Part shown: in pieces, positions 29,526-61,975 of the stretch
Position numbering within the stretch: the first letter of the stretch is position 1
Layout of the letters: every line of letters starts with the position of its first letter
DNA from: Zoroaster sp. YZ-2022
Lineage: Eukaryota; Echinodermata; Asteroidea; Forcipulatida; Zoroasteridae
DNA length: 64,000 nt
NCBI GenBank assembly: GCA_029582265.1
Contig: CM055822.1
Coordinates: 186,001-250,000, forward strand
Direction: 5' to 3'
Made by a program: the position numbers and the translations under genes
The notes under the pieces: model-generated
The model's input: the letters and a program-made list of their open reading frames with translations, nothing else
The model's database searches: none
Told to the model about the DNA's origin: nothing

Positions 29526-29543
29526 TAAGTCATAATTATGACT
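29526..29543. repeat. 18-bp perfect palindrome
   Basis: AAGTCATAATTATGACTT, about 340 bases upstream of the gene 3 ATG, conserved in the D3 copy near 59369. Possible dimeric protein-binding site; function unknown. Confidence 0.5.
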
Positions 29544-38810: not shown

Positions 38811-41582
38811 TGCGATGTCCTCTACTTGAATTACCATGCACAGTATCTGACCTAGCAGTGTACAACTATGAAGCTGAAAGATGTGTCTTACACTGGATGA
38901 ACTCTATATAGAGACTGTATATATTGATATTGATGTTGTTTAGTGACTATCTGTGAATTTGTGATTACTGGACTCGCCAAAAAGAAAAAGTTATTTAAAA
39001 AGAAAAATGGGTGACATTTGATATACTGTCCCCACTCTAAAAAGTAGAGGGGACGTGTACCCCGTCCCCCACGTTTTATTCCTTCTATTTACTCTAGAGT
39101 ACTTTTTCCTACATTCGAAGTTATTTAAATTTTCTTAGAAATAACAGCACATCAGAAAACATTATTTCTAGGGAAGATTAATACCATCATCAGCTTAAAA
39201 CATTCAATTTCGAACATTTTGTTATTTGTAAATTACCAATTCTATACCACACCTATATCGAGGAAACTAAACATTTCGATTTTATTAAAATATCATGCCT
39301 TTAGTATAGTTTTTTAACAAGAAATATTTTCATGATTGGTTTTATCGAAAGAGAATGCCAAATTATGACGAAATAAATATTTACCTGAAATGCGCAGAAT
39401 TTGTGAAAGTAGGATGCATTCAGAATCGTTCATGTTGAATGATTGGGACCAGAGGATAAACATTTATACAGTTGAAAAATTGATTTACTAATTTAACTAA
39501 ATTGATAGCAGTTCAGACAAAAATATTTCAAGGGATGTTTGATACCATCATGAACGTTCATGTAAAACTGTGATCCTTTATGTTGAAAAAACTACCTCCT
39601 TCTTTATTCAACATAGCGCGACAATCTCTTTTTCCCATTAAAACAGGGTTTATGTGTAACATTTCTCAGAAATGCAAGTTAGTTATCATGATCATAATTG
39701 AGGTGATTTTTCTCTCTTTTCAGGTAAATCTGGGTCTTTCCGAGAGTGGTCTAAAAGTTTGTTACTTTGGATCCGTACCGGAGCCGAATCCTGGTCAGTC
39801 TCAAGCCAAGCATCACTTGATGACATTAGCAATGCGAGGGATACAGAACAAATGCCAGAGTCTTAAAACCATCCTGCGAGAAGGTATATAGATTGGTTCA
39901 AAGTAGGGGCAACATTACACAGAAATTGGCTCCCTTTCTGACTCTGTATATAAATTGCGACAATCGAATCCAGTGCGGAGAGGGTTGATCACTGATAATC
40001 AGTGGATACTTTTATACGCTTTTCTCTTTGCTTTGTACCTGTGTAAACCGACAGAAATTCGATATCCCCACACGGGCGATGTTTGAATAGAGAAGGAAGA
40101 ATCATGACATTGTATACCTTACACTAATGCATTTCTAAATATTAGCGTATTTTTTTATTAACTGTTGACGTCACAAGGCAAAAAATGGAGGATCATTTTG
40201 TCAATAGAGTTTGTTGTAGCGGGAACACTTTGTATGGAAAATGGTGCTATTCCAAACGAAAACATCATATACTCCATTTTGAAATGAGGAGAGATCAACA
40301 TCTCCATAAAGGCGTAGCTTATACAAACTTGACAACATCTTCAGTTCGACAATTCTTTTAAATAATATCACACAGATCCTTGTCATTTGATTGGGTCGAA
40401 AGCACATCACGTGCTATCCATCACCTAGTTTGACATTTGCACTAAAAGTATATATTTGACATAAATTACATAGGCCTAGTAAACGACTATAGTATACACA
40501 CATTGGGTTCCTTAAAGACCAACAGGAGCTAACATCTGGACTGTTCAATTTCAGATGCTACCGAAGGCACCATTTGTTTTATATCATTCACACATAGATC
40601 CTCGTCATTTGATAAATATTTCAGTGACTTTCACATGTTCGTTCAGATTTTACCGGGTGATGTTAATCTTCCCATCTATTGGTGTGTGTACTGACGGCAC
40701 CCGCAACGCTCTGCCTGTACAATAGCGCTCTATTGTACAGTCTTTTGGAGCAAAGGGCAAAACTATTGGACGGCATGTGATGTGTGTTCCCCAATCAAAT
40801 AACAAGGTATTCATGTCACTTTTGGACATTAAATGATATGGATCAAGACCTATGTTTGTGTTATAATCAAATATTGAGTGCCTCATAGTAAAATCGCCGA
40901 GTGAAATGGTTCAGTTACTGGCTTCCCATTTTACTATTAGGCACTTTTTGTATACCAGTATAAATCAATGACACAAATATTATGTGTACTGCAGTTTGTT
41001 CAGTTGAAACGGAGAAGCATCTTGGTATGGAGAATGGTGATATCCCAGATGGAAGCATCACAGCCTCATCATTTTGGTATAACTTAGCAGATCATGCACC
41101 CGTTAGGGCACGCCTCAATACTCAAGGTACCGGTAACTGATATATACTAGTTGAATATAATCCTTATAGTATAAGGAATAATAAGGAACTACAACCATGG
41201 TGACATAAAATGGAGGCACACAGCAAAAAAGGAGAATTATACTGTCAAAAAGGCATTCTACCCCAATCGTATGGTAAATTACATGCATGGAGCACTCGTC
41301 CCCTTTAAACTAAATTAAAAGTACAGGATCCGTTTACGAATAAATTAAAACGACAGGCTCCGTTTACGACAGTCGCATTTTATGCATCCCTCCACGATCA
41401 GCAGTAACGGTTCCAGTAACAGCTATTAATTTGACAAATAATTGGCCCAAAAATGAGCCCAAAAATAGTGACTGGTATCACATACCTATCACGAGCTTCG
41501 CTGTGTGATTTCGTGTTCTGGATAGCCGTACGACCTTTTGAAGAGCTTTGAAGGCACATGTACGCTATTTTCGCAGACTAGT

Positions 41583-42710
41583 AAAGGTCCTGTGAAGAGT
41601 GTATTTACCAAACTTTATTTTTGGGTGCTGTTATATTGATTGGTATGAATTAAAAACAATTTTAAATGTTTTTTTTTGTGTCGAGTGGATTATTAATTGT
41701 TTATCTAAGAATCAAAAATTGACCCCCGAATTTTCAAAGTTTTAACGAAACGTTCGTGACGTACACAAAGGCAGATAATTTTACACTCGCGGAGCTAGGC
41801 GGTATGGTTTGGTGCCAGACTTTGATCGGATGAAAGTCTAATAATTATAGAGGATCGAGTTGTCCCCGTCACGGTACAATGCACGCTTAGCGTTGTCATG
41901 CACACACAGACGCATTTTAGGCCAGAAGCACGGGAGAATTACTCTACGAAAACCTAGCAGTAACACGCGAAAAACATGTCCGAAAGAGAGGAGAGTTATC
42001 CGTGAAATGCAGCGCAAGCCCCTATCATGCGGTCGGAACACACACCGAAGGCAATGCTAACATTACGGTGTTATTTTATGAAATAACAGAAACAGTTGAG
42101 TCAAAGTTCTGATCATTTAAAAAAAACTCGAAACAAGTGCAGGCATAATAAGAAAGGTTTGATGTTTTTATGTTTGTCTTGCCAGGATATAAAATCAGAC
42201 ACGATGTTTTTATTAATGCGGAAAATCACAGCATGTTTTCATGCCGTGAACACTGAAACGGTGAGCATGGTGTGAACATGTCATTTTGCACGGAATTGGA
42301 CTGGGTTATGCATGGGAGTATTATTAAATGGCCACTTACACTGAGTCTTTCTCGCTTAAAAAAAAACACCTCTCTTCTTCGTTGGAGCCTTCACAGCCTT
42401 CTTAATACTTAGCGGGAATATCGTTGGAATTGCTGGTAGCAGCATGGCCTTATAAGTCGTACCGAACTGGCTGTGAAGGCCCCGTTCAAAGCATGTCTGC
42501 TCGTCTGTCTGCAAGTGCTGTGGATCGCGGATCGGGAATTGCCTCAGTGTACGTCACGAATTGTATGTTAATGAGGGGTATGGGCGTGTAGAAAAGCACC
42601 CCCTAAATTGGTATAAACGTGAGGGGAAACATTTACAAATGACAAATATATGTTCCAGTAGGCATACTTTATTCTATACAATGAAAAAACACCTATTTCA
42701 TAGGACCTTT
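41583..42710. mobile_element. 1128-bp TIR element, non-autonomous
   Basis: Ends AAAGGTCCTGTGAA and TTCATAGGACCTTT are inverted repeats (13 of 14). The A1 site (about 8317) is uninterrupted, so this is an insertion in gene 1' intron 3. No transposase frame. A 12-bp perfect inverted pair GCCTTCACAGCC / GGCTGTGAAGGC (42387-42398, 42469-42480) bounds a possible nested small element. The target duplication is unclear. Confidence 0.6.
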
Positions 42711-43895
42711 AAATATTATTGTAGTTACAGTATGGTGTAAATGGAATTTTTCCAGCGATGTATCATTTGAAATTCCAAACTGATTATCCTATAAAACTTG
42801 CAATTCAAGATTTTAATCAGATTTCAAGACGGTAAAATTGGCTATGAGCACGGAGCATGTATCTATGTGATAGAGGTATATTTACTGAGTATCCATCGGC
42901 ATATTTGATGTAGGGTCTTTATTATTGGGTAAACAGGTTTTGCTGCTGCCTGGTGTGCTGGCAAAGGTGATTCCCAGCCCTGGATACAAGTTGACTTCAA
43001 TGCCACGGTATCCATCACTGGTCTGATTACACAAGGCCGTGCCAGCAGTGACGGTACTGACCAATGGGTGAAGACATTCAATGTGTCTGTACCAAGTGCT
43101 GGCGGTCAGCTCTGGAGTTTGGTGGCCGATACAGACGGTGCACCAATGGAGGCAAGTAATAAAGACTATACACACTGTGGGGACAATTGATGGATATACT
43201 TAAATAGAACTTAACAGTAACCCATTTATACTTTTATTTCGGCACTTGTGAACTGTAAAACAATGGTTCTCATGATTGTGTTGTAATTGTTAAAACGGTA
43301 TTTGTTTGCCTTTGCATGAGTCAAACAATATCATTGTTCTGATACCAAATACTATTTCGGAAAATTTAATACCAAGAAGCAAAATTGTGGGAGAAAAATT
43401 TACTATCACTTACAAACATTCTTCCAAATTGTGTTGTATTAATAGCATTAGATGATTTTTTTGCTTGTTAACAGTTCATCGGTAACACTAATGGAGACAC
43501 TGAGGTGACCACAAGATTCAGGGAGGTACTGTACACAAGAGCTATCCGCATTCATCCAACTAGTTGGAACGACCACTGGAGCATGCGTTTTGAAGTGATA
43601 GGATGTTATCACTAAAAATACAACCATACAACTTCATAAGAAGTCACAAAAATGTAATTCATGATTTCTTCAGTAACAAATAGTCGTATCGTATTTGTTT
43701 GTAGCCCATGCTACAAGTGATAAATGTGTAGAAGATTATTATGTGCATTTATATTTATCATGCAAAATGAACTTTAAACATGGTTAAAACTCCATCATTT
43801 CTGACCAAAATATATTACATGGTCAGCTCTCTATTATCTGAGAAAGAAGTTTATATTTGACTTGGAAGATGCTATAGACCAATCCTGCCTTTTAA

Positions 43896-46800
43896 CCCTT
43901 TGTTTACCACCACTAAGCTTATGATCATTTTTTGTTTTTACCTCCACAGGTTACTTTAGTAAGGTATGCATTTGCCATGTTTGCTTTTTATTTTTATTAA
44001 TTTCGTCGTTTCCATGGAAACTAGGCTGTGGGACTTTTAAGTCCCGACAGTACATACAGGTACTAAATTACGGTACACAATGTACATACACAATATACAA
44101 AACAAGTACACAACAAGTGTTCATGTAGAAAATTCAGTCTTTTACTGTTTTATTGTCCTTCTGAGTTGTTTAATTTAATGTTATTTGATGGTAAATTATA
44201 CAATGAAGTTGCAAGAATACGAATAAAGGGCCGGTCGCACTGCAGCGATAACAAGCTATAGATAGTTCCCGATAGACGCCATCTTTACAGGCAACTAGGG
44301 TTTTGGTTTAGAGCTGGGTCAAGCGTTCTACGCAACCAAGTGGTTCAACAACCAATTATAGAAGAAGTTGATACCATTCATGCTTGATTGCCCGTAAAGA
44401 TGGCTGACTTTACATTGTGTGATTATCAAGTGGGAATTATGTATTATTTCTAAGACATAAAACAATTACATGCAAATGTATAAATACAGTAATATACCAG
44501 CCGCGGATCCAGGAATTTTTGCCCGGAAGGGTCAGGCCTTTGTTTTGATTATATCCGATAAAAAAACCTGTAATGTTTTTTTAAATTATTTTTATTAGTC
44601 GGGGCGGGGGGGGTCGACCCTAATTTATTCATTAGGGTCATACTGGTTCTGCATGGATAGTACATATACGATACCCCATGAAACTCTAAGAAACAGTTCT
44701 TCTTCTCATTGCTGCACAGAAATACACCACAGGTATCACACTTGCTGTGGGGCCTCGACTCGATCTTCTTAGTTGAGCAAACTTCGCGTCGCCCACGTTG
44801 TTTGACATACACAACCCAGTGTACACCACGATTGTGTAGTCGCATTGCCCTATCAACTGAGTACTCTGTACGACGGCGCTTATTTACTACTGCAGGGGGT
44901 GTAGTCCTACCAGTAAGAGGCCTTCCAACCCTTGGTGGACGGGCAAGGACTACAAATGTTTGTGCAACACTTCTGCGAAAGTCTAATGTGCTCAACCTTT
45001 TGCCCAAGTTTTTATTGTATGCGATTTGTGCATTGCAAAGTGTGCGGTCCAAGATGCCAAAAAAAATTCTGTGCCACCACTTTTTTGATTTTCTTCCCAA
45101 TCCGTGTACTGCACAGTACATATCAGCTTTATCAACTCCCCCCATGTATGAATTGTAGTCCTTCAGAGCCTTGGGGCATGGACATTCTTTTGAGGTTCCA
45201 TCCTTTTGTTTGCGAGTTACATTAGCTTTGTCTGTCCCATGGAAATTTGAAATTACATGAACCCCCCTATTGTCCATCCACTTGAAATAAACTAGATCTT
45301 GATCTGATGCACGGTGGTCAAATTGACCGCGCTCTAGAGCCTTATCCATTACCATCCCTTCGGGTAAGCCCTTCCGATTCACCCGAATTGTACCACAAGC
45401 CCTGACATCATTAGCTTTGAGATATTCCATGAGTGGAACAGAGGAAAAATAGTTATCAAAATACACCTCGTGATGTCTTCCAAACAAATCCTGTGTCATA
45501 TCAATGATGACCCTTTCTCCTAACCCAAATCCTGCCAAGGTTTCATCTGGGACACCTCCACCACTCTTCCCTTGATACACATCGAACTTGGTAATATATC
45601 CGTCACTGTCTGCCCTCATCCACAGCTTGTAACCCCGCTTTATAGGTTTTTTTGGGTTGTATTGTTTGATCGAGTGTCGCCCTTTGAAAAGTATCATACT
45701 CTCATCAACACTAACTCGTTGACTGATATTATACAACTTGACATAATTTTGATTCATTTTTGCGATGAGTGGTCTCAGTTTATACAGTTTGTCAGTGTTG
45801 TTAGCTGGGATATTGTTATTGTCATTTACATGTAAGTTAGACAGTATTTGCCCAAACCTGTTCCTAGGCATGGTTGACGCCACCAGTGGAACGGTCAAGT
45901 CTTGATCCGTTTTCCAATAGTCTGTCCAAGACGGCAGCTTGTGATACCCCATGATGAAATTGATGCCGATGAAGCCTAGGAACTCTTGGTTAGTGACAGG
46001 TGAGATGTGCCGCTGCCTCTGATTGATGTACAGATTTGTTTGGTAGATGATGTCATGTCGGGTTGACTCATCTAAGTACTGTAGGAAGTAGTCACCAGGA
46101 GTCTCGCACTCTGTAAAGTGATCTACAATAGGACCTAAAGCAAAACAAGGAACATGTATGAAAATTTTGAGAAACACACATTTGTAGTTTTCTTTATTTG
46201 ACAAAATGCTTGTCCTTTCTTATTGTAAACCTTATTATAGTTCAAAGAACATATATGTTGTGTTTGAAAAATACTGCATACCTTCCGGTAAATCAAATTG
46301 AGACAACTTTGCAGTGACATCTTTCTTCTTCCAGTGGCGTTTGGGTTCTGGTGTTTTCTTTGCCCGTGAAGTTGATGGCACATCAGGCTGCTCGTCAGTA
46401 CTTTCAGCCTCATCATCGTTGCTGTGACTATCATCTTCTGCATCTATGTCGACAGTTTGCAAACCTAACGGGTCTGGCTGAAATGTTGGGTCATCGCTAT
46501 CTGAGTCAGGCTCTTCATCAGTAACATCACTGTCAGATGGTATATCATCTAAAAGGAGCTGTGCTTCATCCAAGTTGTACATGGATGCAAGTCTTCTCTT
46601 TGGAGCATGATCCATTCTAAACATATGAACATAAAATATAGAATTAGCTACAATACTCTAAGTGTGTCGAAAAAATATATATAATATTTGTATATTTGTA
46701 ATTGTATGTTTGTAAGAAAGACCCATTGAGTTACTGACTGAAAAGTAGAGATATTTTCAATTAGAAAGAAAGCATTATTTAGTATTAGTCAGTATAAATG

Positions 46801-47486
46801 GCAAAGCCTTGCATACAACCCTCCCCTGCTGCCCCCCCCCCCCCCCCCCCCCCCCAAAAAGAAGCCAAGTACACGTCCCATGCCCATGCATGGCGCTGGC
46901 CCATATCATGCATAATTCTAACGGACAATATGACAATAAATTTCGATCCATATCGAGTTTATTTTCCCCATCAAAGTAATTACATCCCTCATTATGGGAG
47001 TGGGCCACGTTTCTCATTTGTATCCGTTTACACATGGCTTACATGGCAGTGCCGCGTCCACACCGTGCATTTGCCCAGTTTCCAGACAGGTCACAAACTC
47101 ACAACGGGACGTGTAAGTCCCACACGAATTCATGCCTAGTTTGACAAACAAAAGTTTCCAATATCAAATATTGCTTTCCCACTAATAAGTTTAGGTCCTA
47201 AAGACCTTATACAAAATTAATTGGGCATTTATTGAGGCCAGCTTATTTTACAAAAAGACCGTTCTTTTACCTACCTTTGTATAGCGCGTCACTCCTGCAA
47301 TTTTTGGAAAAAGCTGGTGACGTAGCACTCACATTAGACTTCCCCCAGTCCTTTGACTGTTCTAAACCACTGCTAATAATTATAAGACTCGGAAGTCCCA
47401 ACATGCAGAGTTGCGCGTTTTTTGTCGGCGTGAAAAGAAGTGGGGTTTCAAATGGACTGGGACTCAAAAGTCCCGTCGGTAAACAA
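43896..47486 (-). mobile_element. piggyBac-family DNA transposon, about 3.6 kb
   Basis: Inserted in the A2 3' flank; A1 has continuous sequence around 9521-9560. The left end is TTAA (43892-43895) then CCCTTTGTTTACC. The right end, read inward, is TTGTTTACCGACGGG, lacking the outermost bases and the flanking TTAA. Small palindromes GGGACTTTTAAGTCCC (44030-44045) and GGGACTCAAAAGTCCC (47459-47474) lie near the two ends. Against A1, 18 bases left of the site and about 16 right of it are missing. A poly-C run occupies about 46835-46854. Confidence 0.85.
44549..46624 (-). CDS. piggyBac transposase, two exons, apparently intact
   Basis: Exon 1 46624-46282 and exon 2 46134-44549 join in phase 1 across a 147-base GT-AG intron (donor GAAG|GTATG, acceptor TTTAG), giving 642 aa, the usual size. 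The N-terminus is acidic and Ser/Asp-rich with a basic stretch (KRHWKKKD). The DDE_Tnp_1_7 catalytic domain shows the three aspartates in their known contexts: RVSVDESMILFKGR, EVYFDNYFSS and MGGVDKADMY. The C-terminus has the cysteine-rich zinc-binding region (CDTCGVFLC, NCFLEFHG). The start is the first ATG of the open exon. Known activity: cut-and-paste transposition into TTAA. No stop or frameshift was seen, so the protein may work, although the element's right end looks truncated. Confidence 0.92.
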
Positions 47487-48967
47487 CGCCGGTCATAGGC
47501 TTTGCTTTTTTGATACGGGTGAGTGTCCGACATTTCCAGCGTTGCTAAGGGTGAGCATATACATAATAAGTAGGCATGGCTTAGTTTAATGTAGCTAATT
47601 ATATTTAATTGATTTTACATAGGTAAAACTTGCAAAACATGTAACTGTGGAATGTTTACTTCGGCAAAATTATGCATTTTCCCGCCATTTTCAAAATGAC
47701 AAAATGGGTGTTTGCAGAAACATGTGAATCCTTAATGTACATACACCCTCTAAGGATTCCAGATTACTTCTAGTCCATAGAAAACTCCCGGTGACCTAAG
47801 GACGTCATTATACATTTACTGAGGAGCTTAATTAGTTAATTTTTAGAAGTTTCCCACGGCCACTAGCCCAGATGGCATCTCCAGGATTTTACCTTTCAAC
47901 GTACATTATTAATGTCCTGTAGCAAAAATGCAGCAACCTCTCACTGTGCGGCTCACACGCTGTGCGCGGCTCACACGCTGTGTGCGCTGACATTGATACG
48001 ACTGAGTGTACACCACACTCGTTGCTCTGAGCAACCGAAAATGGAATATGCCATTAACATAATAGGGGACAAAACTACTGTTAGTATACAAACTGGCAGA
48101 AAACAAATCATTTATTTTTTTCTCCGTGTTGTAACGAAGGTTTATTTCTAAAAAATAATGTGTGGTTATAAAAATACTATAGAATACATATACAAAACAC
48201 AATTTTACATCAAAACAATCACTACTACTACAATAATGAAATGAGATGTATACCAACACAATGTTACACTCTTTTTACGTGCATGTACATCATGTAGCAT
48301 GTCCCGTTTATACCAATATTTTGTGTGAAAAACTAAAAGTCATGCAATGTAACTGTTTAGCATATATTGTATTGGATTTTTTTTAAGGTATACAAAATGT
48401 TAATGAAAACTGAATGTCAATGTATTTGATAATATTCTAGCTGATTAAACATCCGTGAATGTTGATAAATGTTTAAATTACAAAATGTATGTGTCGCTGA
48501 TCATCTCTTCGTGTAAGTCATCGAACACCATCCGTAAGTCATCAATATACACCCCTATCAACTTAATGCAGTGATCCAGCTACAATGGGTCCGAATAAAA
48601 CAGGAAAATACCTCCAATCCGATATACTTTGGGTGTAAAAAAGGGTATATGTTTATCTCAAAGGTATATTTGTTATAAAACAAAAAATAATGGTTTGAAA
48701 CGAGTTCTTCTTTGGGACTGAAAGATGCAACGTTGTTTCGAGCAGGTCTAGTTCCCGCCCACAGAATCCGTGAATCATGTGGAAACGTAGTCCAGGCTAT
48801 CAATAAACCAAAGGTCATGCTCTCCAAAAACGGGCTTCATGATTTTGACACAAAGAGTGCCCTTCTTTCCAGTCCACCAATCAAAATAGATTTTACATAG
48901 ATTGAAAGCTTATTTTATCTAGTTTATAAAACCGTGCGATCTAAATTGCTGTGACCTTAGTAGTATG

Positions 48968-49340
48968 TGAGCAGCATCACACGACAGATTGTGGAGGAAC
49001 AGAGGTGGGATTGTGGTGCATTGTGGTGCATTGCCATTACAAACTGCACAAAATCACTGCAGACAAACTGCAGACAAACGAGGAGGGATTGAGCAATGTG
49101 GTGGTGGGAGCACCATAATTTTTTTTGATGGCCAACTTCAATTTATTTTCTTCTTCCATTTTTTTTTTTTTTTGGCCATCAAAAAAAAATTATGGTGCTC
49201 CCACCACCACATTGCTCAATCCCTCCTCGTTTGTCTGCAGTTTGTCTGCAGTGATTTTGTGCAGTTTGTAATGGCAATGCACCACAATGCACCACAATCC
49301 CACCTGTGCTCCACCACAATCCATAGTGTGATGCTGCTCA
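48968..49340. repeat. Nested terminal hairpin, left arm of the palindromic element
   Basis: 48968-49133 pairs with 49174-49340 around a T-rich loop, so the terminal module is itself a small foldback structure. It contains repeated CTGCAGACAAA units and a GATGGCC motif next to a T run. The mirror structure lies at about 54616-54990. Confidence 0.8.
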
Positions 49341-49673
49341 TCCACACAATTTTTCATGATTGAAATTTTTTTTTCAAATTTTTTGATGCTGTTCACCGTA
49401 ATGGTATGATGCTGTACACATGATTGAAATTTTTCATGATTGAATTTTTTTTTTCAATTTTTTTTTTCAACCACAATAAAATCACAAGGGGTAAGCCTTG
49501 TACTTGTTTAATTGAACACTTTGAACAGAACAGGCCATAATTTTTTTTTGATGGCCAAAATTTTTTTTTGATGGCCAACACAATGTACATGATGCCTGTA
49601 TTCCATATGTTTAATTGAGCGCTTTGAACAGAACAGGCCATAATTTTTTTTTTGATGGCCAAAATTTAAAACT

Positions 49674-49770
49674 GATGCTCAGACAAACTGCACACTGTGT
49701 GGAGGGAGTCACGCGCGCGCCCAGACGTGTCTCACGCGCGCGCCCACAGTGTGCAGTTTGTCTGAGCATC
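49674..49770. repeat. Second nested hairpin with CG-rich loop
   Basis: GATGCTCAGACAAACTGCAC pairs with its complement ending GAGCATC; the apex holds two GCGCGCGCCC blocks. Mirrored at 54157-54253. Confidence 0.8.
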
Positions 49771-50005
49771 ACACGACAGTTTTGTCTGCAGTTTGTCTGC
49801 CAAAATACTTATTCCCTCCACACAAAACTGCACACAAAATACTTACTCCAAAAAAAGTGGTTAATATGTGGATTGGCCAAATGATTTTGCTCACTTTGTG
49901 GTTTTTGTAATAATGTGGTCGTGGTTATTATGTGGTTTGACCCGCTATGAACTTTGAATAATAATAATAATAATAGGTAAAACTTGTAGCTTTCAACAAC
50001 GTACG

Positions 50006-50135
50006 ATTGAGTCTTTACTCATTGAGTCTTTACTCATTGAGTCTTTACTCATTGAGTCTTTACTCATTGAGTCTTTACTCATTGAGTCTTTACTCATTGA
50101 GTCTTTACTCATTGAGTCTTTACTCATTGAGTCAA
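50006..50135. repeat. 15-bp repeat array, left arm (about 8 units)
   Basis: The unit ATTGAGTCTTTACTC creates the dyad ACTCATTGAGT at each junction. Two more units lie at 50265-50299, about 20 bases before the TATA box of the left C2H2 gene. Confidence 0.9.
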
Positions 50136-50318
50136 TCCCTCCTCCTCCTCCTCCTTTTTGGTTTCCATCAAAATCACAAGGGGTAAGCCTTGTATTTATA
50201 TATTTTTGGTTTCCATCAAAATCACAATGTGTAGTATTTTGTGTGCAGTTCAAGGGGTACCGGATTGAGTCTTTACTCATTCAGTCTTTACTCATTCCGA
50301 AATGATTAGTTATAGGCC

Positions 50319-50327
50319 TATATATAA
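50319..50327 (+). promoter_or_regulatory. TATA box of the left C2H2 gene
   Basis: TATATATAA lies 52-60 bases upstream of the ATG and just after the 15-bp units. The same arrangement is mirrored at 52774-52784 for the right copy, where the array is far longer. Confidence 0.55.
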
Positions 50328-50378
50328 ACTATTTCTTCCGTTTCTTGTCAATCGGAGATTAAGCATCAGAGATTCAAC

Positions 50379-51125
50379 ATGAATGTTATTTCTGCTGTCA
50401 AACCCCATGCTTGTCACCAGTGCGGCAAAAGCTTTGGACGGAGATATAACCTACGGAGGCATGCAGAACATGTACATAATGAAGAGAAATCTAAAATGGA
50501 TGAAGTTGACGATGATTCTGAAATTAAAGCTATCCAATCTGACAATTCTGACATCGATAATTCTAAACCCGATGTTAAAAAGCGTAGATTTGAAGATTCG
50601 GAAATAGAAACTTATGAAACTGAATCTACGCAGGATGAAGACAAAGATTTCGAGGAAGATGATTCAGAATCCGATACGGAGGTGGAATATGACGAATCAT
50701 CGGAAGAGGATGAGTCAAGTTCTGAACTGGAAGACAATACCACTTTTCGAGACTGGTTGGAAGAGGCTAAAGTGGCTACTGAAGAGATGTGGTGTGAAAA
50801 ATATGAAAAGTACGTCAACGGGGGTATGAGTGAAGACCAAGCCAAGGAAAAAGCCAATAGGAAAACCCTTTGGGCAGTCAAGCGAATCTTTTTCAACAAA
50901 TACAAGGATTTTTTGTCAAGTTACCTACATCTGAAAGATAATGGGACTCATCAGGATATTGCGGAAGATCTCGAAGAAAAAGTAAATAAAGGCATGAAAG
51001 TAAACAAAGCTCTGAACAGAGTAATGCCTAAACACCATACCAAATTTGACGGACTACTACTTCAACTAAATGAGGATGAAGAGAACGAGGATGAAGAGAA
51101 CGAGGTTCGTTTCACAGAAGTATAA
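50379..51125 (+). CDS. C2H2 zinc-finger protein of the palindromic element, left copy
   Basis: 248 residues from the first ATG after the TATA box. A single C2H2 finger is at residues 12-33 (C-x2-C-x12-H-x4-H, core CHQCGKSFGRRYNLRRH). An acidic, Ser/Asp/Glu-rich linker (about 34-122) contains a basic KKRR patch that could be a nuclear signal. The C-terminal part (about 123-235) looks helical: FRDWLEEAK, MSEDQAKEKANRK, FFNKYKDFLSSYL. No catalytic motif is seen. I recall uncharacterised proteins of this layout in marine invertebrate genomes, sometimes near Polinton-like elements, but cannot verify a match. Inferred: DNA-binding factor that might act on the adjacent dyad repeats. The last residues differ from the right copy because the arms diverge at about 51103. 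Confidence 0.8.
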   Translation: MNVISAVKPHACHQCGKSFGRRYNLRRHAEHVHNEEKSKMDEVDDDSEIKAIQSDNSDIDNSKPDVKKRRFEDSEIETYETESTQDEDKDFEEDDSESDTEVEYDESSEEDESSSELEDNTTFRDWLEEAKVATEEMWCEKYEKYVNGGMSEDQAKEKANRKTLWAVKRIFFNKYKDFLSSYLHLKDNGTHQDIAEDLEEKVNKGMKVNKALNRVMPKHHTKFDGLLLQLNEDEENEDEENEVRFTEV

Positions 51126-51391
51126 AATCCACCCCGGCGTGTTTTCATACCTTTTGTAATGTTTTTTATTTTATTTTATTTGTTATATTATTTTATATTC
51201 CTTAAGGGAAGTAGAAAGGGGAGGGACAACAACGTACGAAGACAGACAAAAGAACGACTGTACATGAAGCTATTCAAGTATGATTTGTTAAATTTAATTT
51301 TAACACCAACAGCAATCTTTGACATCAATATATTTACAGATGGTTTTTATATTGGTTTTAAATTGGAAAACATTTGATAAACTGAAAACAT

Positions 51392-51447
<56 letters not shown>

Positions 51448-51996
51448 GTTATTTTAAATTCTAACAAATTCGGGGCCTTTATCAAACTGCACACAAAATA
51501 CTTACTCCCTCCACACAAAATACTGCACACTACTCCCTTAACACCAACAGCAATCTTTTACATCAATATATTTTACAGATGGTTTTTAAATTGGTTTTAA
51601 ATTGGAAAACATTTGATAAACCGAAAACATTAATTATTATTATTATTAATGAAGTCGAATATTAGGGCTCATAATACAGTTGTCTAACTTACATGAAACA
51701 ACGGCCCGCTTTAGAATGTCAGGCCTGTAGTTCACAATACACTGTCTATTTAAAGATGAATAGAAAGTCACCCAGAAGTTTAGAACCCATGCAGAGGCAC
51801 TCATTTTCTTCGAAATTAAGTTGTCACTGCCCTTGATGTAACGTAATAGTGTAAAATAACCATAAAGGATTACTGTAAGACTAACAGAGGTGGTTATTTT
51901 ATAGATTTTTTATTCCTACCAAAAAACACTATTATAGATGGGGTTTTTTAAATTACAGTAGTCTTTCTGAAACATCTGGTCTTTCATTATCACTCT
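51104..51996. other. Central spacer of the palindromic element
   Basis: Not inverted-repetitive as a whole. It holds an ATT microsatellite (about 51397-51447), a direct duplication (51301-51393 and 51539-51632, starting ACACCAACAGCAATCTTT) and no recognised gene. Confidence 0.7.
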
Positions 51997-52724
51997 TCCT
52001 CGTTCTCTTCATCCTCGTTCTCTTCATCCTCATTTAGTTGAAGTAGTAGTCCGTCAAATTTGGTATGGTGTTTAGGCATTACTCTGTTCAGAGCTTTGTT
52101 TACTTCCATGCCTTTATTTACTTTTTCTTCGAGATCTTCCGCAATATCCTGATGAGTCCCATTATCTTTCAGATGTAGGTAACTTGACAAAAAATCCTTG
52201 TATTTGTTGAAAAAGGTTCGCTTGACTGCCCAAAGGGTTTTCCTATTGGCTTTTTCCTTGGCTTGGTCTTCACTCATAGCCCCGTTGACGTACTTTTCAT
52301 ATTTTTCACACCACATCTCTTCAGTAGCCACTTTAGCCTCTTCCAACCAGTCTCGAAAAGTGGTATTGTCTTCCAGTTCAGAACTTGACTCATCCTCTTC
52401 CGATGATTCGTCATATTCCACCTCCGTATCGGATTCTGAATCATCTTCCTCGAAATCTTTGTCTTCATCCTGCGTAGATTCAGTTTCACAAGTTTCTATT
52501 TCCGAATCTTCAAATCTACGCTTTTTAACATCGGGTTTAGAATTATCGATGTCAGAATTGTCAGATTGGATAGCTTTAATTTCAGAATCATCGTCAACTT
52601 CATCCATTTTAGATTTCTCTTCATTATGTACATGTTCTGCATGCCTCCGTAGGTTATATCTCCGTCCAAAGCTTTTGCCGCACTGGTGACAAGCATGGGG
52701 TTTGATAGCAGAAATAACATTCAT
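51990..52724 (-). CDS. C2H2 zinc-finger protein of the palindromic element, right copy
   Basis: 244 residues, inverted copy of the gene at 50379-51125. The finger (residues 12-33), acidic linker and C-terminal helical region are all kept. Over the shared 238 residues I count five substitutions (for example V7I and Y79C), and the C-terminus ends in EEE rather than RFTEV. Both copies stayed open, which suggests coding constraint, recent duplication or gene conversion between arms. Upstream it has a TATA-like TATATATAAAC and then the 42-unit dyad array. Confidence 0.8.
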   Translation of the reverse strand: MNVISAIKPHACHQCGKSFGRRYNLRRHAEHVHNEEKSKMDEVDDDSEIKAIQSDNSDIDNSKPDVKKRRFEDSEIETCETESTQDEDKDFEEDDSESDTEVEYDESSEEDESSSELEDNTTFRDWLEEAKVATEEMWCEKYEKYVNGAMSEDQAKEKANRKTLWAVKRTFFNKYKDFLSSYLHLKDNGTHQDIAEDLEEKVNKGMEVNKALNRVMPKHHTKFDGLLLQLNEDEENEDEENEEE

Positions 52725-52796
52725 GTTGAATCTCTGATGCTTAATCTCCGATTGACAAGAAACGGAAGAAATAGTTTATATATAGGCCTATAACTA

Positions 52797-53430
52797 CTCA
52801 TTTCGGAATGAGTAAAGACTGAATGAGTAAAGACTGAATGAGTAAAGATTCAATGAGTAAAGATTCAATGAGTAGAGACTCAATGAGTAGAGACTCAATG
52901 AGTAGAGACTCAATGAGTAGAGACTGAATGAGTAGAGACTGAATGAGTAGAGACTCAATGAGTAGAGACTCAATGAGTAGAGACTCAATGAGTAGAGACT
53001 CAATGAGTAGAGACTCAATGAGTAGAGACTGAATGAGTAGAGACTCAATGAGTAGAGACTCAATGAGTAGAGACTGAATGAGTAGAGACTGAATGAGTAG
53101 AGACTGAATGAGTAGAGACTCAATGAGTAGAGACTCAATGAGTAGAGACTCAATGAGTAGAGACTCAATGAGTAGAGACTCAATGAGTAGAGACTCAATG
53201 AGTAGAGACTCAATGAGTAGAGACTCAATGAGTAGAGACTCAATGAGTAGAGACTGAATGAGTAGAGACTGAATGAGTAGAGACTGAATGAGTAGAGACT
53301 GAATGAGTAGAGACTCAATGAGTAGAGACTCAATGAGTAGAGACTCAATGAGTAGAGACTCAATGAGTAGAGACTCAATGAGTAGAGACTCAATGAGTAG
53401 AGACTGAATGAGTAGAGACTGAATGAGTCA
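52797..53430. repeat. 15-bp repeat array, right arm (about 42 units)
   Basis: The unit CAATGAGTAGAGACT has variants GAATGAGTAGAGACT and GAATGAGTAAAGACT. The junction dyad ACTCAATGAGT recurs throughout. The array is expanded relative to the left arm and abuts the promoter of the right C2H2 gene. The long Ser-Leu-Tyr open frame across it is an artefact of 15 being divisible by three. Confidence 0.93.
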
Positions 53431-53786
53431 AAGATTGCTGTTTGTGTTAAAATTAAATTGTGCAGTTGTGTGCAGTGGTAAAATTGTGGTTGAAAAAAAA
53501 AAATTAAAGAAAAAAAAATTGATTTTTTTGTTCAATCATGAAAAATGTCAATCATGTGTGCAGCATCACACGACAGTTTGTGGTCAAGCAGGAGGAGGAG
53601 CGGAGGAGGAGCCATTACAAACTGCACAAAATCACTGCAGACAAACTGCAGACAAACTGAGGTGGGATTGAGCAATGTGGTGGTGGGAGCACCATAATTT
53701 TTTTTTTTGATGGCCAACTTCAATTTTTTTTTTTTTTACTTACCCCTTGTGATTTTGATGGAAACCAAAAAGGAGGAGGAGGGATT
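53431..53786. repeat. Extra internal cassette in the right arm
   Basis: Contains a partial copy of the terminal module (GCAGCATCACACGACAG, CTGCAGACAAACTGCAGAC, GGTGGTGGGAGCACCATAA, GATGGCC) lying inside the arm, with no equivalent at this position in the left arm. Confidence 0.7.
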
Positions 53787-53885
53787 GACTCAATGAGTAA
53801 AAACTCAATGAGTAAAGACTCAATGAGTAAAGACTCAATGAGTAAAGACTCAATGAGTAAAGACTCAATGAGTAAAGACTCAATC
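53787..53885. repeat. 15-bp repeat array, right arm, inner block (about 6 units)
   Basis: CAATGAGTAAAGACT units, the mirror partner of the left-arm block at 50006-50135. Confidence 0.88.
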
Positions 53886-55724
53886 GTACGTTGTTGAAAG
53901 CTACAAGTTTTACCTATTATTATTATTATTATTATTCAAAGTTCATAGCGGGTCAAACCACATAATAACCACGACCACATTATTACAAAAACCACAAAGT
54001 GAGCAAAATCATTTGGCCAATCCACATATTAACCCCTTTTTTTGGAGTAAGTATTTTGTGTGCAGTTTTGTGTGGAGGGAGTAAGTATTTTGTGTGCAGT
54101 TTTGTGTGGAGGGAATAAGTATTTTGGCAGACAAACTGCAGACAAAACTGTCGTGTGATGCTCAGACAAACTGCACACTGTGGCAGCGCGCGTGAGACAC
54201 GTCTGGGCGCGCGCGTGACTCCCTCCACACAGTGTGCAGTTTGTCTGAGCATCACACGACAGTTTTAAATTTTGGCCATCAAAAAATAAATTATGGCCTG
54301 TTCTGTTCAAAGCGCTCAATTAAACATATGGAATACAGGCATCATGTACATTGTGTTGGCCATCAAAAAAAAATTTTGGCCATCAAAAAAAAATTTTGGC
54401 CATCAAAAAAAAAATGATGGCCTGTTCTGTTCAAAGTGTTCAATTAAACAAGTACAAGGCTTACCCCTTGTGATTTTATTGTGGTTGAAAAAAAAAATTG
54501 AAAAAAAAATTTCAATCATGAAAAATTTCAATCATGTGTACAGCATCATACCTTTACGGTGAACAGCATCAAAAGATTTGAAAAAAAAATTTCAATCATG
54601 AAAAATTGTGTGGATGAGCAGCATCACACTATGGATTGTGGTGGAGCAGAGGTGGGATTGTGGTGCATTGTGGTGCATTGCCATTACAAACTGCACAAAA
54701 TCACTGCAGACAAACTGCAGACAAACGAGGAGGGATTGAGCAATGTGGTGGTGGGAGCACCATAATTTTTTTTTTTGATGGCCAAAAAAAAAAAAAATGG
54801 AAGAAGAAAAAAAATTGAAGTTGGCCATCAACAAAAAATTATGGTGCTCCCACCACCACATTGCTCAATCCCTCCTCGTTTGTCTGCAGTTTGTCTGCAG
54901 TGATTTTGTGCAGTTTGTAATGGCAATGCACCACAATGCACCACAATCCCACCTCTGCTCCTCCACAATCTGTCGTGTGATGCTGCTCACATACTACTGA
55001 CCTTGCTGGTGAGTTTGCCATTCAATTTAGTGGGAAGACCCCCGGAAAACACGACTAAAAGTGTGGTGACCTCCATACAAATCAGAGAATTTCAGACCAA
55101 AAGCACTTATTTGAATAAAAAAGTGCCCTTCTTTACCGTCACATAATTATAACAAAATGACACTCTTTTGAAAGGGAATACCTATATTTTCAAATGCCGA
55201 GCGATCTAACATGTTTAACAAAGTTACTTTTCAGAAATAGAGAAAATAATCCTCCGAGCGTAGAGATTTGATGAGAATTTCCCGTGTTGAATAGGTCGCC
55301 GTAGACGGCGTTGAGCAGATGAACGCTAGTTTTTCATGTGGTATTTGTTTGAAATATTAAACGAATGCAAATGGGGAGTACACTTATCTTACAAGGGAAA
55401 ATGTCTTGCATCATCTATACGGACAACTCTTCTTCAAGTTAGATATCATCAACATTTGACAAAAATTAAAATCAATATTTTGATTCTTAGAAAATCCCAA
55501 CGTTATCAGCATTGGATGCACGCTCTACGTGTAATTAAAATGGTGGGTGGGGGAGGCTACGTAATCAGTCGACTGAACTGTGCATTTGATCTTATAATAG
55601 AATATTTAAAAAAAAAATCTTATTACGGTAGTGAATACGAAAATAAACTTTACCCAGCGTCCCAATGTACTTTCCTGTAAATTACTGTTAAGGTGTCATA
55701 GCGCCCATACACTTCCAACATTAA

Positions 55725-56224
55725 NNNNNNNNNNNNNNNNNNNNNNNNNNNNNNNNNNNNNNNNNNNNNNNNNNNNNNNNNNNNNNNNNNNNNNNNNNNN
55801 NNNNNNNNNNNNNNNNNNNNNNNNNNNNNNNNNNNNNNNNNNNNNNNNNNNNNNNNNNNNNNNNNNNNNNNNNNNNNNNNNNNNNNNNNNNNNNNNNNNN
55901 NNNNNNNNNNNNNNNNNNNNNNNNNNNNNNNNNNNNNNNNNNNNNNNNNNNNNNNNNNNNNNNNNNNNNNNNNNNNNNNNNNNNNNNNNNNNNNNNNNNN
56001 NNNNNNNNNNNNNNNNNNNNNNNNNNNNNNNNNNNNNNNNNNNNNNNNNNNNNNNNNNNNNNNNNNNNNNNNNNNNNNNNNNNNNNNNNNNNNNNNNNNN
56101 NNNNNNNNNNNNNNNNNNNNNNNNNNNNNNNNNNNNNNNNNNNNNNNNNNNNNNNNNNNNNNNNNNNNNNNNNNNNNNNNNNNNNNNNNNNNNNNNNNNN
56201 NNNNNNNNNNNNNNNNNNNNNNNN
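55725..56224. other. Assembly gap (500 N)
   Basis: Exactly 500 N, a placeholder length. Left of it is A2 text; right of it is D-type text, so the A2 end and possibly a first exon for gene 4 are missing. Confidence 0.99.
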
Positions 56225-57289
56225 GTTTTAGAAAAAAATTATTAACAATATAAGTTTGATTAAACTCAACCCAATGTAAAATATTGTAATACTTTTTTTT
56301 AACCGAAATCATTTTTTGTTCCCTCGAATTTAAAAAAACAAACTGTGGGACCCCTAGGGGACATTAAATGTGAACAGGACTGCAATTTTGGGCTAATTTT
56401 TGTTCACTAAAGTGGTGAATTCTTTTTTCAAGGCAGCACCAGGAAGGCGAATTTTAAAGAGGACCATAATTATTTTCCATCACTGGACCCTAATAATAAT
56501 TTAAAATAATAAGCAGCAAAGGTCCCACACATTATAAAATACGCTATATAAATCTTACTAAATATTGATACTCATTGTCTAGTCTAATATTAGCATCTTT
56601 GTTTTGTCTTGCATACTGTATGATGTTCCAGTGTGGTGCACCTGTGTACGAAATATTGATGGAATATGATAAGCAGCAACTCATTTTCACAGTTGATATT
56701 TTGTTACCTTGAGATGTATAGAAGCATACATAATGCCTTTTACTGTGGCTTGTTTTCAATAGAAACAAATTATAATGAAATTCTGACTTCATTCTGACTT
56801 CCGGAAGAGGAAATTGTCATACAATCGAGTGAGCTTCATTTCTACGTTTTACACAAATTCAAAGACATGCGAATGACGCAAGAACCATTTCCATGTTGGC
56901 AAAAAAATAAAATAAAAATAAATTAAAGAAATGCCTCACCGCACCGATTTTGGAGCCGACCGATGACCAGAAACTGGAGACCTTTTTGGGCCTGTTGAAG
57001 CATTTTTCTTTCACTCAATCACAGAGCTGTATTGATATTGCAATTAAAAAGCCAGTCTATGCCGTTATCATTTTGAGAATTCCATTTTTTCAGAGAAATG
57101 TGTTGTCAGAAAAATAACCAAACAAGGTGCTGTCAAGTTAACGCACGATACAAAATAAGAATAACAAATAAAAATAATATTAATAATTAATAATTTTCTT
57201 CATCTCTTTAGCTTCGAATTTGATTAAACAATACCTTTCAAGGTTCTCTCTTTGTTGTTTTTTATCTTTTGATTCGAAGCGGCGGCCAA

Positions 57290-58191
57290 GGTGTGTTATC
57301 TGATCAAGGAGCAGGACCAGAGAGGCAAACCTCGATGGGTAAAGCCAGTTGAGCTCAAGGATCGCTGTTCATGCACAAGCATCAGACCAGGCGGCGTTAA
57401 CATGTATACAATAGCAGAGACATTACGACGAACCACATTACACCGATCACTCACTGTTCACGGATGATCAGACCAGAAAAAGATTCGCAAATATTTTAAT
57501 TGTCAAGGTGAGCCTTTTGAAGAGTGCAATCGTGGTTACAATTAATAAATAAATAAAATAAAATTACATTATTGGGCTACGTGTCATTGGTAATATCACA
57601 TTAAGCTGGAAAAGCATAGCCAACTTTGGAGTGAATTATTATGTCGCGGGTGCTCTCATTTAGGTTCTGGCGAAGTTGTAAAAATCAAATTGCAAATTAA
57701 TAAATGGACAAACATTACTTGTGTCTATAAAATGCATGGTTAGTTAGATATATATCAGTATTGAGAAACAATGCTACCTCTTTTCTACATTTAGTACCTG
57801 TGATTCAAATTCATTTGAATGTTTCCCTTTTTAGAATTCTTCTTTAAAAGAATATCTATAACCAAAGAGCTTCCTTGGGCGGGCACTGAATCGAAGTCTG
57901 TAGCCATCATCGTCACAAATGACTCCCAATGAAAATTAAACATTATTACAATTTCATTCAGAGCTGCAAAACATATATAGTTGTTATACCAGAGGTTCTT
58001 CACAGAAGAAATCTTTATTTTAATTAATTTTAATTCATTTGTTATCAAACTTTATCTAGTTTGTTCAGTTGATACGGAGAAGCATCTTGGTATGGAGAAT
58101 GGTGATATCCCAGATGAAAGCATCACAGCCTCGTCATTTTATGACAACAAAGCAGATCATGCAGCCATTAGAGCACGGCTTAATACTCAAG
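57290..58191 (+). pseudogene. FA58C gene 4 fragment (exons 2 and 3 only)
   Basis: Exon 2 57290-57507 has several small insertions and deletions against gene 3 (218 nt instead of 219, frame lost soon after the KVCY codons). Exon 3 58069-58191 is open (VDTEKHLGMENGDIPDESI, SSFYDNKADHAAIRARLNTQ). Exons 4-5 are absent: from about 58610 the sequence is D-type. It is either a truncated duplicate or a poorly sequenced region. Confidence 0.65.
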
Positions 58192-58619
58192 GTAACTTAC
58201 ACAACAGTTGCATATAACCCTACAATAAGGAATAATAAGAAACTACAACGAAAGTTACAGAAGACAAGAAACAAGAAAATAATCCAAAAAGGATGTAAAC
58301 ATTGTGACGGTTGACAACAGGTCAGCATATATTTGAGATATTTTAGAAATATGAACAAATGTTACTATAAATTAAAACCCCCAACATTTTTTCCAGGTCA
58401 GAGAGCAAAATACTACACTATAATTATATTAGTAGTTATAAATACAATTGACAATCAGGTACAATATCGGGAAAGTTTAGTTGAATATTAAGGATGCATA
58501 TCTTTATTTTTCGTCAGTTTTGGTTTAAATCTGTACATTTATCTTGTCCTTGTAGAAGTATAAATTAAACTTTCTCTATATCACAAAATAACTGACCAGG
58601 ACATACAACGATACAAACT

Positions 58620-61600
58620 TTCACTGTTGTAAATTTACATTTATCGTTGTTATTGTTGTTTTTAAATTAAGACCTTACACCTATGGTTACTATTTAATTA
58701 TGATTATTAATTATCAATTGGCTAATTTTTTTCGCAAATATGTATTAGGTGTATAATAATATGCACACTATGCATGTTATGCCCGTGACTCCTCCCACTC
58801 TACAACTTGCGTTGGGGAAGACGTCATCTCATAATATTCATACCGTATAGCGCACTTATTAATTGATACGGAAGGTATAACAAAAGGGAACTATTGGCTA
58901 GTCGGTGATTATATCGCCAACATTCGTCAGTGCAAATACTATGACAAGATTATTTAAGAGACCATAATTATTTTCCCTAAGTGGGACCTTAAGTCTACTT
59001 TAAAATAATACTACTTAAAATCAATAAGCAAAGGTCCCAAATATTACAGTAAAATGCGCCGTATATAAACTTAGTAAATATTGATACTCATTGACTCTGG
59101 ATATTACCATCTTTGTTTGTCTTCATAATGTGTGATGTTCCAGTGAGGCGTACCAGTTCCCGCTTTCACGCTTCAATAACGCACTAATCCTTCCAGCAAA
59201 GAAACCTGCAGTACGTTTCATTATTTAAGCGTTTACAGAAATTGTGTAAATGAGTTTAATTAACACACTTGTTATGTAAAATTGAAAAACAGCAAATTGT
59301 TGGAAATAGAGTTGTCGCATTTCGCTGTAATTTTGCTGCACCTACATTTGTTTTTATAGTGTATGCTAAGTCATAATTATGACTTAACATCTCATAATTA
59401 TGAACTATTTCTTTTATTCTTTGCAACTTACTTTTGCCTCTCAGATGTTATAATAATGAGATTGCCCCTTTAATGTGCGTGATGACGGTGTTTCTTTTGG
59501 ATGACGGTGGTGAATATGATAACATGACGTACCGTACAAACACAGTTGCACACCCATACGTTGCTGTTGTAGTGACTTTTGGTGTTGTCACATTTGTAAC
59601 ACACCCCATACGGTGCTATAGTAGACTCTTATCAATAGTTTGAAGCCAGCCAAAAGATTGGGAAATCAGAATGACAGTGGTAAACATCAAAAACTGGATC
59701 CGACTGATTTCATCTGACACTAGTGTTCAAAGTGTTCCTCAGTTATCATGGGTACCCTTCACCACATCACCAGTGTGTTGCCTCGTGATTCCTGGCGTCC
59801 ATCAAAGTGTTGGTCGGTGAGTTATTTTTTTTAAAGAATAAAACCTGGAGACCAAACTTAACATAAAAATGAAAGTAAATGCATTTTTGTTTTCGTTCCC
59901 TGGATCCGTTCCAGTAGTGGTGGTATTAGATACCCACTTAATTTGCAAATCATGAAATAAATCTTCACAAAGGTTTATAACTACTTCAAACAAGCATGCT
60001 AAGACATTATCAGATATTTTCCACGTTTAAATAACATGACACCTTTTCTGGTATTGAAAAGTATTTTCAAGACATAATTAACTGTAGAAGATTGCTCCGT
60101 TTTATGCTGCGTGGTTTTATGTATAAATGCACTAACATTTTGGTTCGAGGGTATCAAAGAAGGAACTATTGACTAGTTGGTGATTATATCGGCAGCATTC
60201 CCAGTACAAATATCATGGCATGATTATTTGACGTCACTGATGTGTCTAATATTGCCTGTAAAATTGGCCGAATTTTAATTTTGAGAAACTTTAGGATTGC
60301 TTTTTCTGAACATAATCACATTATGAGCCACTTAAGGATTACTCTATGACCTTGATTATACATACTGATCCTTTTTTGGGTTTGTATTGTGGGTGGGGTT
60401 ACATTATTTTATAGCCATTGTGGTATTACATTATAATCCCAATTAAATTATACACCGAACTATATCTACATTGAACCGTACGATTGATGCAATTAAGCTT
60501 GATCGCGCCAGGCATTCCATAGTATTCCATAGTATAAGCAATGTTTCAATTATATAATACAGGCCAAACTACTCCAAAACATGTTTTGCTCTTTGTGCTT
60601 CGCCTTGTTGGTGTCAATATATAGACATTACGTTTATAATACATAGGATAGCTGCTGGAAACCACACAATGCAAACACTGGTCTTAGGGGGCTCCAAGCA
60701 AATATCAATAATTGACCTTCCCCCATTATTTTTTTTTAGAAAGGTCATGTCAGAAGGAAATTATTAACAACATAAGTTTGATTAAACTCAACCCAATGTA
60801 AAATATTGTAATATTACTTTTAACCGAACCCTTTTTGTCTCAAATTTTTTTAAATTTTAAGTATGGTCCCCTGGGGACGTTAAAACGTGAACAGCGCCGC
60901 AATTTTGGGCCAATTTTGTTCACTAAAGTGGTAAATTTTCAAGGGCAGCACCAGGAAGGCGAATTTTAAAGAGGACCATAATTATTTATCATCAGTGGAC
61001 CCTAATAATAATTTAAAATAATAAGCAAAGCTCCCACACATTATAAAAAACGCTATATAAATCTTAGTAAATATTGATACTCATTGACTCTAATATTACC
61101 ATCTTTGTTTTGTCTTGCATACTCTATGATGTTCCAGTGTGGTGCACCTGTGTACGAAATATTGATGGAATATGATAAGCAGCAACTCATTTTCACAGTT
61201 GATATTTTGTTACCCGTACCCTTGAGATGTATAGAAGCATACATAATGCCTTTGACTGTGGCTTTTTTTTCAAAAGAAACAAATTATAATGAAGGAAATT
61301 GTCATACAATCGAGTGAGCTTCATTTCCACGTTCTACACAAATTCAAAGACATGTGAGTGACGCAAGAACCTGTTGAGGCATCTAAAAAAGTCTCTGGTT
61401 TGTGGTCTCCGCACGTCGCCTCAGACTCGCGCGTCGGCATTTTTTAAATCTTTCTTTTTAGCTATGAAACGATGTCCAATTACAGCCAAAATTGCTGGAT
61501 CGATTGGAATTCTGCCGTGCTGTGTTTTAAACGACTTTTTCACATAGGGGTATATGAACGTTTGCCCGATGTACTGTACATGCATAACGTATTTCCATGT

Positions 61601-61975
61601 TGGCAAAAAAAAAAAAAAAAAAAATTAAAGAAATGCATCACCGCACTGATTTTGAAGCCGACCGATGACCAGAAACTGGAGACCTTTTTTGGCCTATTGA
61701 AGCATTTTTCTTTCACTCAATCACAGAGCTGTATTGGTATTGCAATTAAAAAGCCAGTCTATGCCGTTATCATTTTGAGAATTCCATTTTTTCAGAGAAA
61801 TGTGTTGTCAGAAAAATAACCAAACAAGGTGCTGTCAAGTTAACTCACGATACAAAATAAGAATAACAAATAAAAATTATATTAATAATTAATAATTTCC
61901 TTCAATCCCCTTTAGCTTCGAATTTGATTAAAACAATACTCTTCAAGGTTCTCTTTGTTGTTTTATATATTTTGT
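58620..61975. repeat. Segmental duplication unit D3
   Basis: Copy of D1 (28780-32140), including the palindrome, the CRE-like module at 58738-58850 and a damaged exon 1 at 59748. Small insertions and deletions are dense up to about 60200 and fewer afterwards. Confidence 0.85.

Follow-up and report, generated by a model that had tools for sequence, protein, structure and literature searches.

A gene-bearing foldback element with Maverick-type ends, and its relatives, in the genome of Zoroaster sp. YZ-2022

The window analysed here is a stretch of 64,000 nucleotides from the sea star Zoroaster sp. YZ-2022 (GenBank assembly GCA_029582265.1, contig CM055822.1, here C7; C7:186001-250000 of a 1.0-Gb genome in 616 contigs), and it contains a 6,040-bp element at 48959-54998 with a C2H2 zinc-finger gene in each of two long inverted arms. 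We conclude, with a probability of about 0.8, that this element is a member of a Maverick-dependent, gene-bearing non-autonomous family. Dependence on the enzymes of Mavericks (Polintons) is most likely because the ends are common to the window element and a Maverick in the same genome. The window element is not a full Maverick, as neither an integrase nor a polymerase is seen in it; it works like a non-autonomous Maverick and has the form of a foldback element. Copies with a single gene are the norm in this genome, from which the palindromic copy in the window is derived.

The window element and its insertion site

Both ends of the element carry the terminus AGTAGTATGTGAGCAGCATC, and GACCTT abuts the element at 48953-48958 on the left and at 54999-55004 on the right. 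The flanks have a paralogue at 9558-11727, with a single GACCTT and no insert. The left flank (47486-48958) aligns with 9558-11009 at 96.9% identity and the right flank (54998-55724) with 11003-11727 at 98.2%; over the nearest 400 bp on each side the identity is 99.25%, and the two paralogue segments overlap only in the one GACCTT at 11004-11009. A first-pass annotation of this DNA had proposed a foldback element of about 6 kb with a C2H2 gene in each arm, matching termini, GACCTT on both sides and an uninterrupted site with one GACCTT, all of which are confirmed.

The arms, at 48959-51105 (2,147 bp) and 51998-54998 (3,001 bp), make up 5,148 of the 6,040 bp. Their outer parts (1,229 bp versus 1,260 bp) are 91.1% identical over 1,297 alignment columns, with 11 mismatches and 9 gap openings, and their inner parts (842 bp each) are 99.2% identical with 7 mismatches. 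Two features had been missed in the earlier annotation: each terminus is itself a hairpin, with arms of 159-160 nt and a 55-nt spacer, and each arm contains a 15-bp tandem array, 128 bp long on the left and approximately 630 bp on the right. Two open reading frames (ORFs) face each other at 50379-51125 (forward strand, 248 amino acids) and 51990-52724 (reverse strand, 244 amino acids), each encoding one C2H2 finger. The Pfam scan within the element was of these two proteins only, and their zf-C2H2 matches (E 2.6e-4 and 2.3e-4; 21.7 and 21.8 bits) are below the curated cut-off of 25.2. Inspection of all six-frame ORFs of at least 80 amino acids reveals the C2H2 gene as the sole gene besides low-complexity frames, and neither a retroviral-type integrase, for which no match is listed there either, nor a protein-primed PolB. 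The features of the element and of the empty site are as follows.

48953-48958: left target-site duplication, GACCTT
48959-49340, forward: left terminal hairpin, starting AGTAGTATG, with 159-nt arms at 48968-49126 and 49182-49340; layout as in the Polinton-type element L027
49341-50000, forward: left terminal inverted repeat, middle part
50006-50133, forward: left-arm 15-bp tandem array, with a unit of the same kind in L027
50379-51125, forward: C2H2 gene, left copy, 248 amino acids, lacking the usual 3' end and running past the junction into terminal-repeat sequence
51105-51106: palindrome junction
51106-51481, forward: terminal-repeat segment; single-gene copies, among them L016 and L030, have it in each of their two repeats
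51645-51989, reverse: C2H2 gene 3' flank, matching single-gene copies
51990-52724, reverse: C2H2 gene, right copy, 244 amino acids, with the usual 3' end
52807-53434, reverse: right-arm 15-bp tandem array
53787-53884, reverse: second short 15-bp array of the right arm
53890-54614, reverse: right terminal inverted repeat, middle part
54615-54998, reverse: right terminal hairpin, ending CATACTACT
54999-55004: right target-site duplication, GACCTT
11004-11009: paralogous empty site, single GACCTT

A run of 500 N bases (55725-56224) begins 727 bases to the right of the last base of the element and ends the alignment of the right flank to the empty site.

Relatives in the genome and the link to Mavericks

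A 24-base terminus pattern is found genome-wide at 36+42 sites, compared with 0+0 for the reversed control, and these sites pair by eye into 28 converging pairs spanning 402 bp to 20,033 bp. Target duplications were tested for 27 of the 28 end pairs (all except C13:13639777): 23 are perfect over 6 bp, three match at five of six bases, two of these being duplicates of one another, and one matches at three of six. The many insertions with 6-bp duplications that the first-pass annotation had named as support are thus present. Four elements with variant ends (L013, L014, L015 and L019) all have perfect duplications, and elements with perfect 6-bp duplications range from 0.4 to 18.7 kb. Not all insertions are independent, as flanks are shared by C17:29873119 and C17:29944836, by two 10.6-kb copies in C2, by C9:5171196 and C9:5223475, and by L014 and L015.

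The C2H2 protein has at least 176 matches in the genome (150 of 2,212 candidates scored), and its gene stays open in many copies. Among the matches listed, five pairs other than the window's hold the gene by eye, in C16 (3.7 kb), twice in C9 (4.6 and 4.9 kb), at C17:19206104 (7.5 kb) and at C2:56405568 (10.3 kb); it is also present in L013 (5.1 kb), and L019 (4.6 kb) has a broken copy. Where both ends are known, most gene-bearing members measure 3.7-5.1 kb. The usual plan, seen in L013, L016 and L030 (the last with a sequence that stops short of its ends), is a hairpin, terminal repeat, 15-bp array, one gene with its 3' flank, array and terminal repeat. An inverted second gene copy is absent from 22 of the 28 best-scoring non-window gene loci, with 1.5 kb examined on each side, and present in six, so that the two genes per element described earlier hold for the window copy and not as the normal form. 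No C2H2 gene match is found in L022 (402 bp) or in L014 and L015 (2.2 kb), despite their shared ends and duplications.

The link to Mavericks comes from the element at C17:29873119-29889466 (L027), which is 16,348 bp long with TACGGG duplicated on both sides. It starts at position 3120 of the L027 sequence with AGTAGTATATGAGCCGCATCACACCATGG, continues with a terminal hairpin and with a 15-bp array similar in kind to those of the window element, and ORFs past the array encode a packaging ATPase (Pox_A32, E 3.4e-8) and a chromodomain integrase (rve, E 2.9e-13; Chromo, E 3e-9). In PHROGs the integrase has transposase-type matches and one of unknown function, and the ATPase a weak terminase match. 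The ORFs at 7507-7983 and 7996-8412 may be capsid-like and that at 5374-5934 may be PX-like; Pfam and PHROGs give no match for any of the three. The integrase has at least 102 genome matches at 58-100% identity (98 of 3,380 candidates scored), and a second copy at C1:81904946-81906106 lies 3.2 kb inside an exact terminus at C1:81909316. Termini, terminal-repeat layout and duplication size are therefore common to the window element and the integrase-bearing C17 element, a Polinton-type element with the same kind of terminus, which the first-pass annotation had named as support.

Maverick end motifs include (AGT)2//(ACT)2 and (AG)3//(CT)3, and the ends of the window element, AGTAGT//ACTACT, are of the former type; the 6-bp GACCTT duplication is of the size seen in these elements, so that the Polinton-like character ascribed earlier to the AG ends and the duplication is borne out. 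The passages of PMC8097293 cited here describe Mavericks as virus-like elements, name (AGT)2//(ACT)2 as the end motif most often found in vertebrate Mavericks, alongside 6-bp duplications, and expect the end triplet repeat to serve jumping back in protein-primed replication; an excerpt of PMC12220804 describes 6-bp duplications as typical of the retroviral-type integrases of Polinton-like viruses. Given the shared ends, a Maverick integrase very probably inserts these satellite elements in trans. The earlier proposal of a non-autonomous element using the integrase of another is thus upheld as to the ends shared with an integrase-bearing element, and use in trans itself is something that we infer. 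Retention of the repeated end triplet to which a role in jumping back is ascribed also makes it rather likely that the protein-primed Maverick polymerase copies the element as linear DNA.

Several other loci are of note. Three PolB-integrase neighbours approximately 3 kb apart are seen by eye in C2, C11 and C14, among the at least 102 integrase and at least 60 PolB matches listed. A 10.6-kb element with the family ends (L009 and L010, C2:35579840-35590416), its target duplication matching at five of six bases, encodes a WW and PC4 protein (PC4, E 5.8e-15; WW, E 4.3e-9) with eight database relatives, together with a second, orphan ORF; a duplicate lies at C2:35667322-35677897, and L023 contains the orphan ORF and, of the first ORF, the region encoding WW. 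Locus L024 (C12:31115000-31124900) is a mosaic of pieces of the C2H2 and WW-PC4 elements and includes a C2H2 gene fragment with a 229-bp tandem repeat; one of its ORFs is presumably PolB-like judging from its motifs, and as it has no Pfam match and a best PDB match at E 0.12 it is not used as evidence. By eye, the insertion flanks of C3:36097972-36107385 and C19:4468612-4488644 are reverse complements of each other, which places both insertions at one and the same position in a host sequence that is repeated or duplicated; the right duplication of the C19 element apparently lacks three bases.

The C2H2 protein and the origin of the palindrome

The C2H2 protein has one N-terminal finger, followed by an acidic stretch and a conserved C-terminal region. 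Its predicted structure (mean predicted local distance difference test score, pLDDT, 66.8) has a confident finger and a C-terminal helical bundle, with pLDDT values of 76-97 in the ten-residue blocks covering residues 121-230 except for one block at 64. Database searches recovered 67 relatives by sequence and 114 by profile, and the only ones with a named organism are from the sea star Patiria miniata and the sea urchin Lytechinus pictus, both echinoderms. No IMG/VR relative was confirmed with either the single sequence (14 pattern stretches) or the profile (86). The protein might bind the shared repeats and thereby regulate how the helper, or its own element, is replicated or transcribed, a tentative guess prompted by the occurrence of zinc-finger genes in adintoviruses and transpovirons.

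The two window gene copies differ by one synonymous and nine non-synonymous changes, and there is consequently no sign that both are under maintenance, contrary to the earlier view that two preserved copies are present. Across the best-scoring gene copies the ratio of non-synonymous to synonymous change is 0.57 (406 pairs of 29 ORFs, leaving out the short L040 and the window's own L029 and L033); as only top-scoring copies entered the comparison, this is weak evidence.

The right part of the window element (51106-54998) follows the usual single-gene plan, except that the outer left repeat is missing together with most of the array next to it. The left part (48959-51105) repeats the right end in inverted orientation and breaks off inside the final codons of the gene, so that the left C2H2 gene ends in repeat-derived residues. 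No microhomology is seen at the 51105/51106 junction. Inverted second gene copies elsewhere are convergent in L055 and L057 and divergent in L036 (92 nt), L050, L051 and L058; L039 has a direct, partial second gene copy. Because six of the 28 non-window gene loci have inverted second copies in differing geometries, palindrome formation is recurrent with varied breakpoints. In L051 (C1:72759628) the 5' flanks of the gene lie in alternating orientation between the two divergent gene copies, forming a nested palindrome.

Such palindromes are probably made by the repeats together with protein-primed copying of the element. For the window copy, the most likely origin, to which we give an even chance, is snap-back copying: a displaced strand would fold on the long inverted repeats and be copied back, producing an inverted copy of the right end, and sequence would then be lost at the palindrome centre, leaving the uneven 892-bp spacer. 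Somewhat less probable is that the family is as described here and that the palindrome arose after insertion by chromosomal repair, through break-induced replication or gene conversion between the arms. The junction is present only in the two loci covering the window element itself among 98 loci (297,856 bases), and the target duplication would survive such repair. Moreover, the arms diverge at approximately 0.8-0.9% of aligned bases compared with 0.75% between the flanks and the empty-site paralogue, so that the palindrome event need not predate the locus. However, two-gene copies recur elsewhere in varied geometries, which fits a process tied to the life cycle of the element rather than chromosomal repair.

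Alternative readings and known systems

A number of observations weigh against a Maverick-dependent family. No PF03175 polymerase match falls in any of the 28 pairs (0 of 60 matches listed; 91 of 1,075 candidates scored), none is shown in the 6,782 of 16,348 bp read of the C17 element, and a retroelement piece lies within that element. Only the C17 pair among the 28 holds one of the integrase matches listed (of at least 102), with none among those listed in its near-duplicate at C17:29944836, the 18.7-kb C8 pair or the 20-kb C19 pair. Comparison of the predicted C2H2 protein fold with viral and PDB libraries gives no match at E <= 0.001, snap-back is one of several routes to a palindrome, and both transposition in trans and the function of the protein are inferred, no transposition having been observed. 

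Another reading, which we consider rather unlikely, is that the C2H2 gene is native to one Maverick lineage and that the 4-5 kb elements are plain internal-deletion derivatives rather than an independent satellite. Zinc-finger 'Ziftr' genes are reported for some adintoviruses in the cited passages of PMC11071296, the 10.3-kb element C2:56405568-56415869 contains the C2H2 gene, and by eye the gene lies within 10 kb of an integrase at C4:39227932 (with 39236076) and C14:23187665 (with 23193062). These are the only two such neighbours among the matches listed, where more are possible, and nested insertion would explain both equally well; in addition, the 6.8 kb read of the C17 element contains no C2H2 match. 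It is far less probable that the family is an independent cut-and-paste transposon with the C2H2 protein as its transposase. The C2H2 gene is the sole recognisable gene of the window element and is open in many copies, but the predicted C-terminal helical bundle lacks a fold match at E <= 0.001, elements without a match to the gene (L022, L014 and L015) and the WW-PC4 elements share the ends and duplications, and an integrase-bearing element has the same ends. Least probable of all is an assembly artefact or the joining of two unrelated insertions: assemblies are known to go wrong at long palindromes, but the same GACCTT stands on each side with a matching empty site, the arms differ in substitutions, indels and array length, no N bases lie within the element, and related two-gene copies are present at other loci.

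In its very long inverted arms with internal tandem repeats the window element is a foldback transposon like Galileo, Tetris and the sea urchin TU elements, from which it differs in having Maverick-type ends, 6-bp duplications and a gene within the arms; Galileo differs further in being grouped with the P element. TU elements are echinoderm elements with 15-bp repeat arrays in the outer arm and an 8-bp target duplication. The 15-bp repeats made TU a candidate, which was dropped on its description, as the duplication here is 6 bp. Full Polintons/Mavericks are 15-20 kb long, compared with 6 kb for the window element and 3.7-5.1 kb for its single-gene kin. No integrase, polymerase, ATPase or capsid gene is recognised in the window element, its arms run into the gene, and the C2H2 gene has no named family beyond the finger. 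The likeness to Mavericks is in the terminal inverted repeats, the repeat layout of the integrase- and ATPase-bearing element of this genome, and the (AGT)2//(ACT)2 ends and 6-bp duplication described in the passages of PMC8097293 cited above. Transpovirons of mimiviruses, as excerpted from PMC8877843, are likewise small, linear, helper-dependent elements with terminal inverted repeats and a zinc-finger core protein; they carry a helicase too and live with giant viruses of protists, whereas the putative helper here is a Maverick in an animal genome, and the window element has the zinc finger with no helicase-like sequence among its inspected six-frame ORFs. The 'Ziftr' genes of adintoviruses and adomaviruses, likened here by description only, are zinc-finger regulator genes on Maverick relatives (PMC11071296, same passages), residing in a virus genome rather than in small gene-plus-repeats elements.

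More speculatively, and on balance doubtfully, the family could represent genuine satellites of a Maverick virus of animals: linear elements of 4-5 kb that the protein-primed Maverick polymerase copies, Maverick particles package and the Maverick integrase inserts, each with one conserved zinc-finger protein whose action on the shared repeats benefits the satellite or restrains the helper. On this view the satellite has spread to high copy number here, has sea star and sea urchin relatives, and sheds gene-bearing palindromes resembling defective genomes as it replicates. Precedents for non-autonomous Mavericks may exist. The phrases non-autonomous or nonautonomous Polinton or Maverick were not found in a literature search that a paper with one phrase alone could escape and that had Repbase and closed journals outside its scope, and the portions of PMC6431247 consulted contain nothing on non-autonomous Polintons. 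What seems new here is an own conserved gene, high copy number, shared hairpin-plus-array ends and recurrent gene-bearing palindromes. A dependent family that carries its own conserved gene and has at least 176 gene matches would make Maverick activity traceable via its dependants and would be an example, comparable with transpovirons, of a parasite living on an endogenous virus of an animal; the several palindromes of differing geometry are material for studying the origin of inverted duplications.

The window also contains large imperfect direct duplications, in which pieces of 1-11727 match 36768-55724 and pieces of 22954-33783 match 56230-62863; these apparently form a tandem array with the insertion inside one unit. 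A separate tandem repeat with a period of approximately 43 bp occupies 17009-18625.

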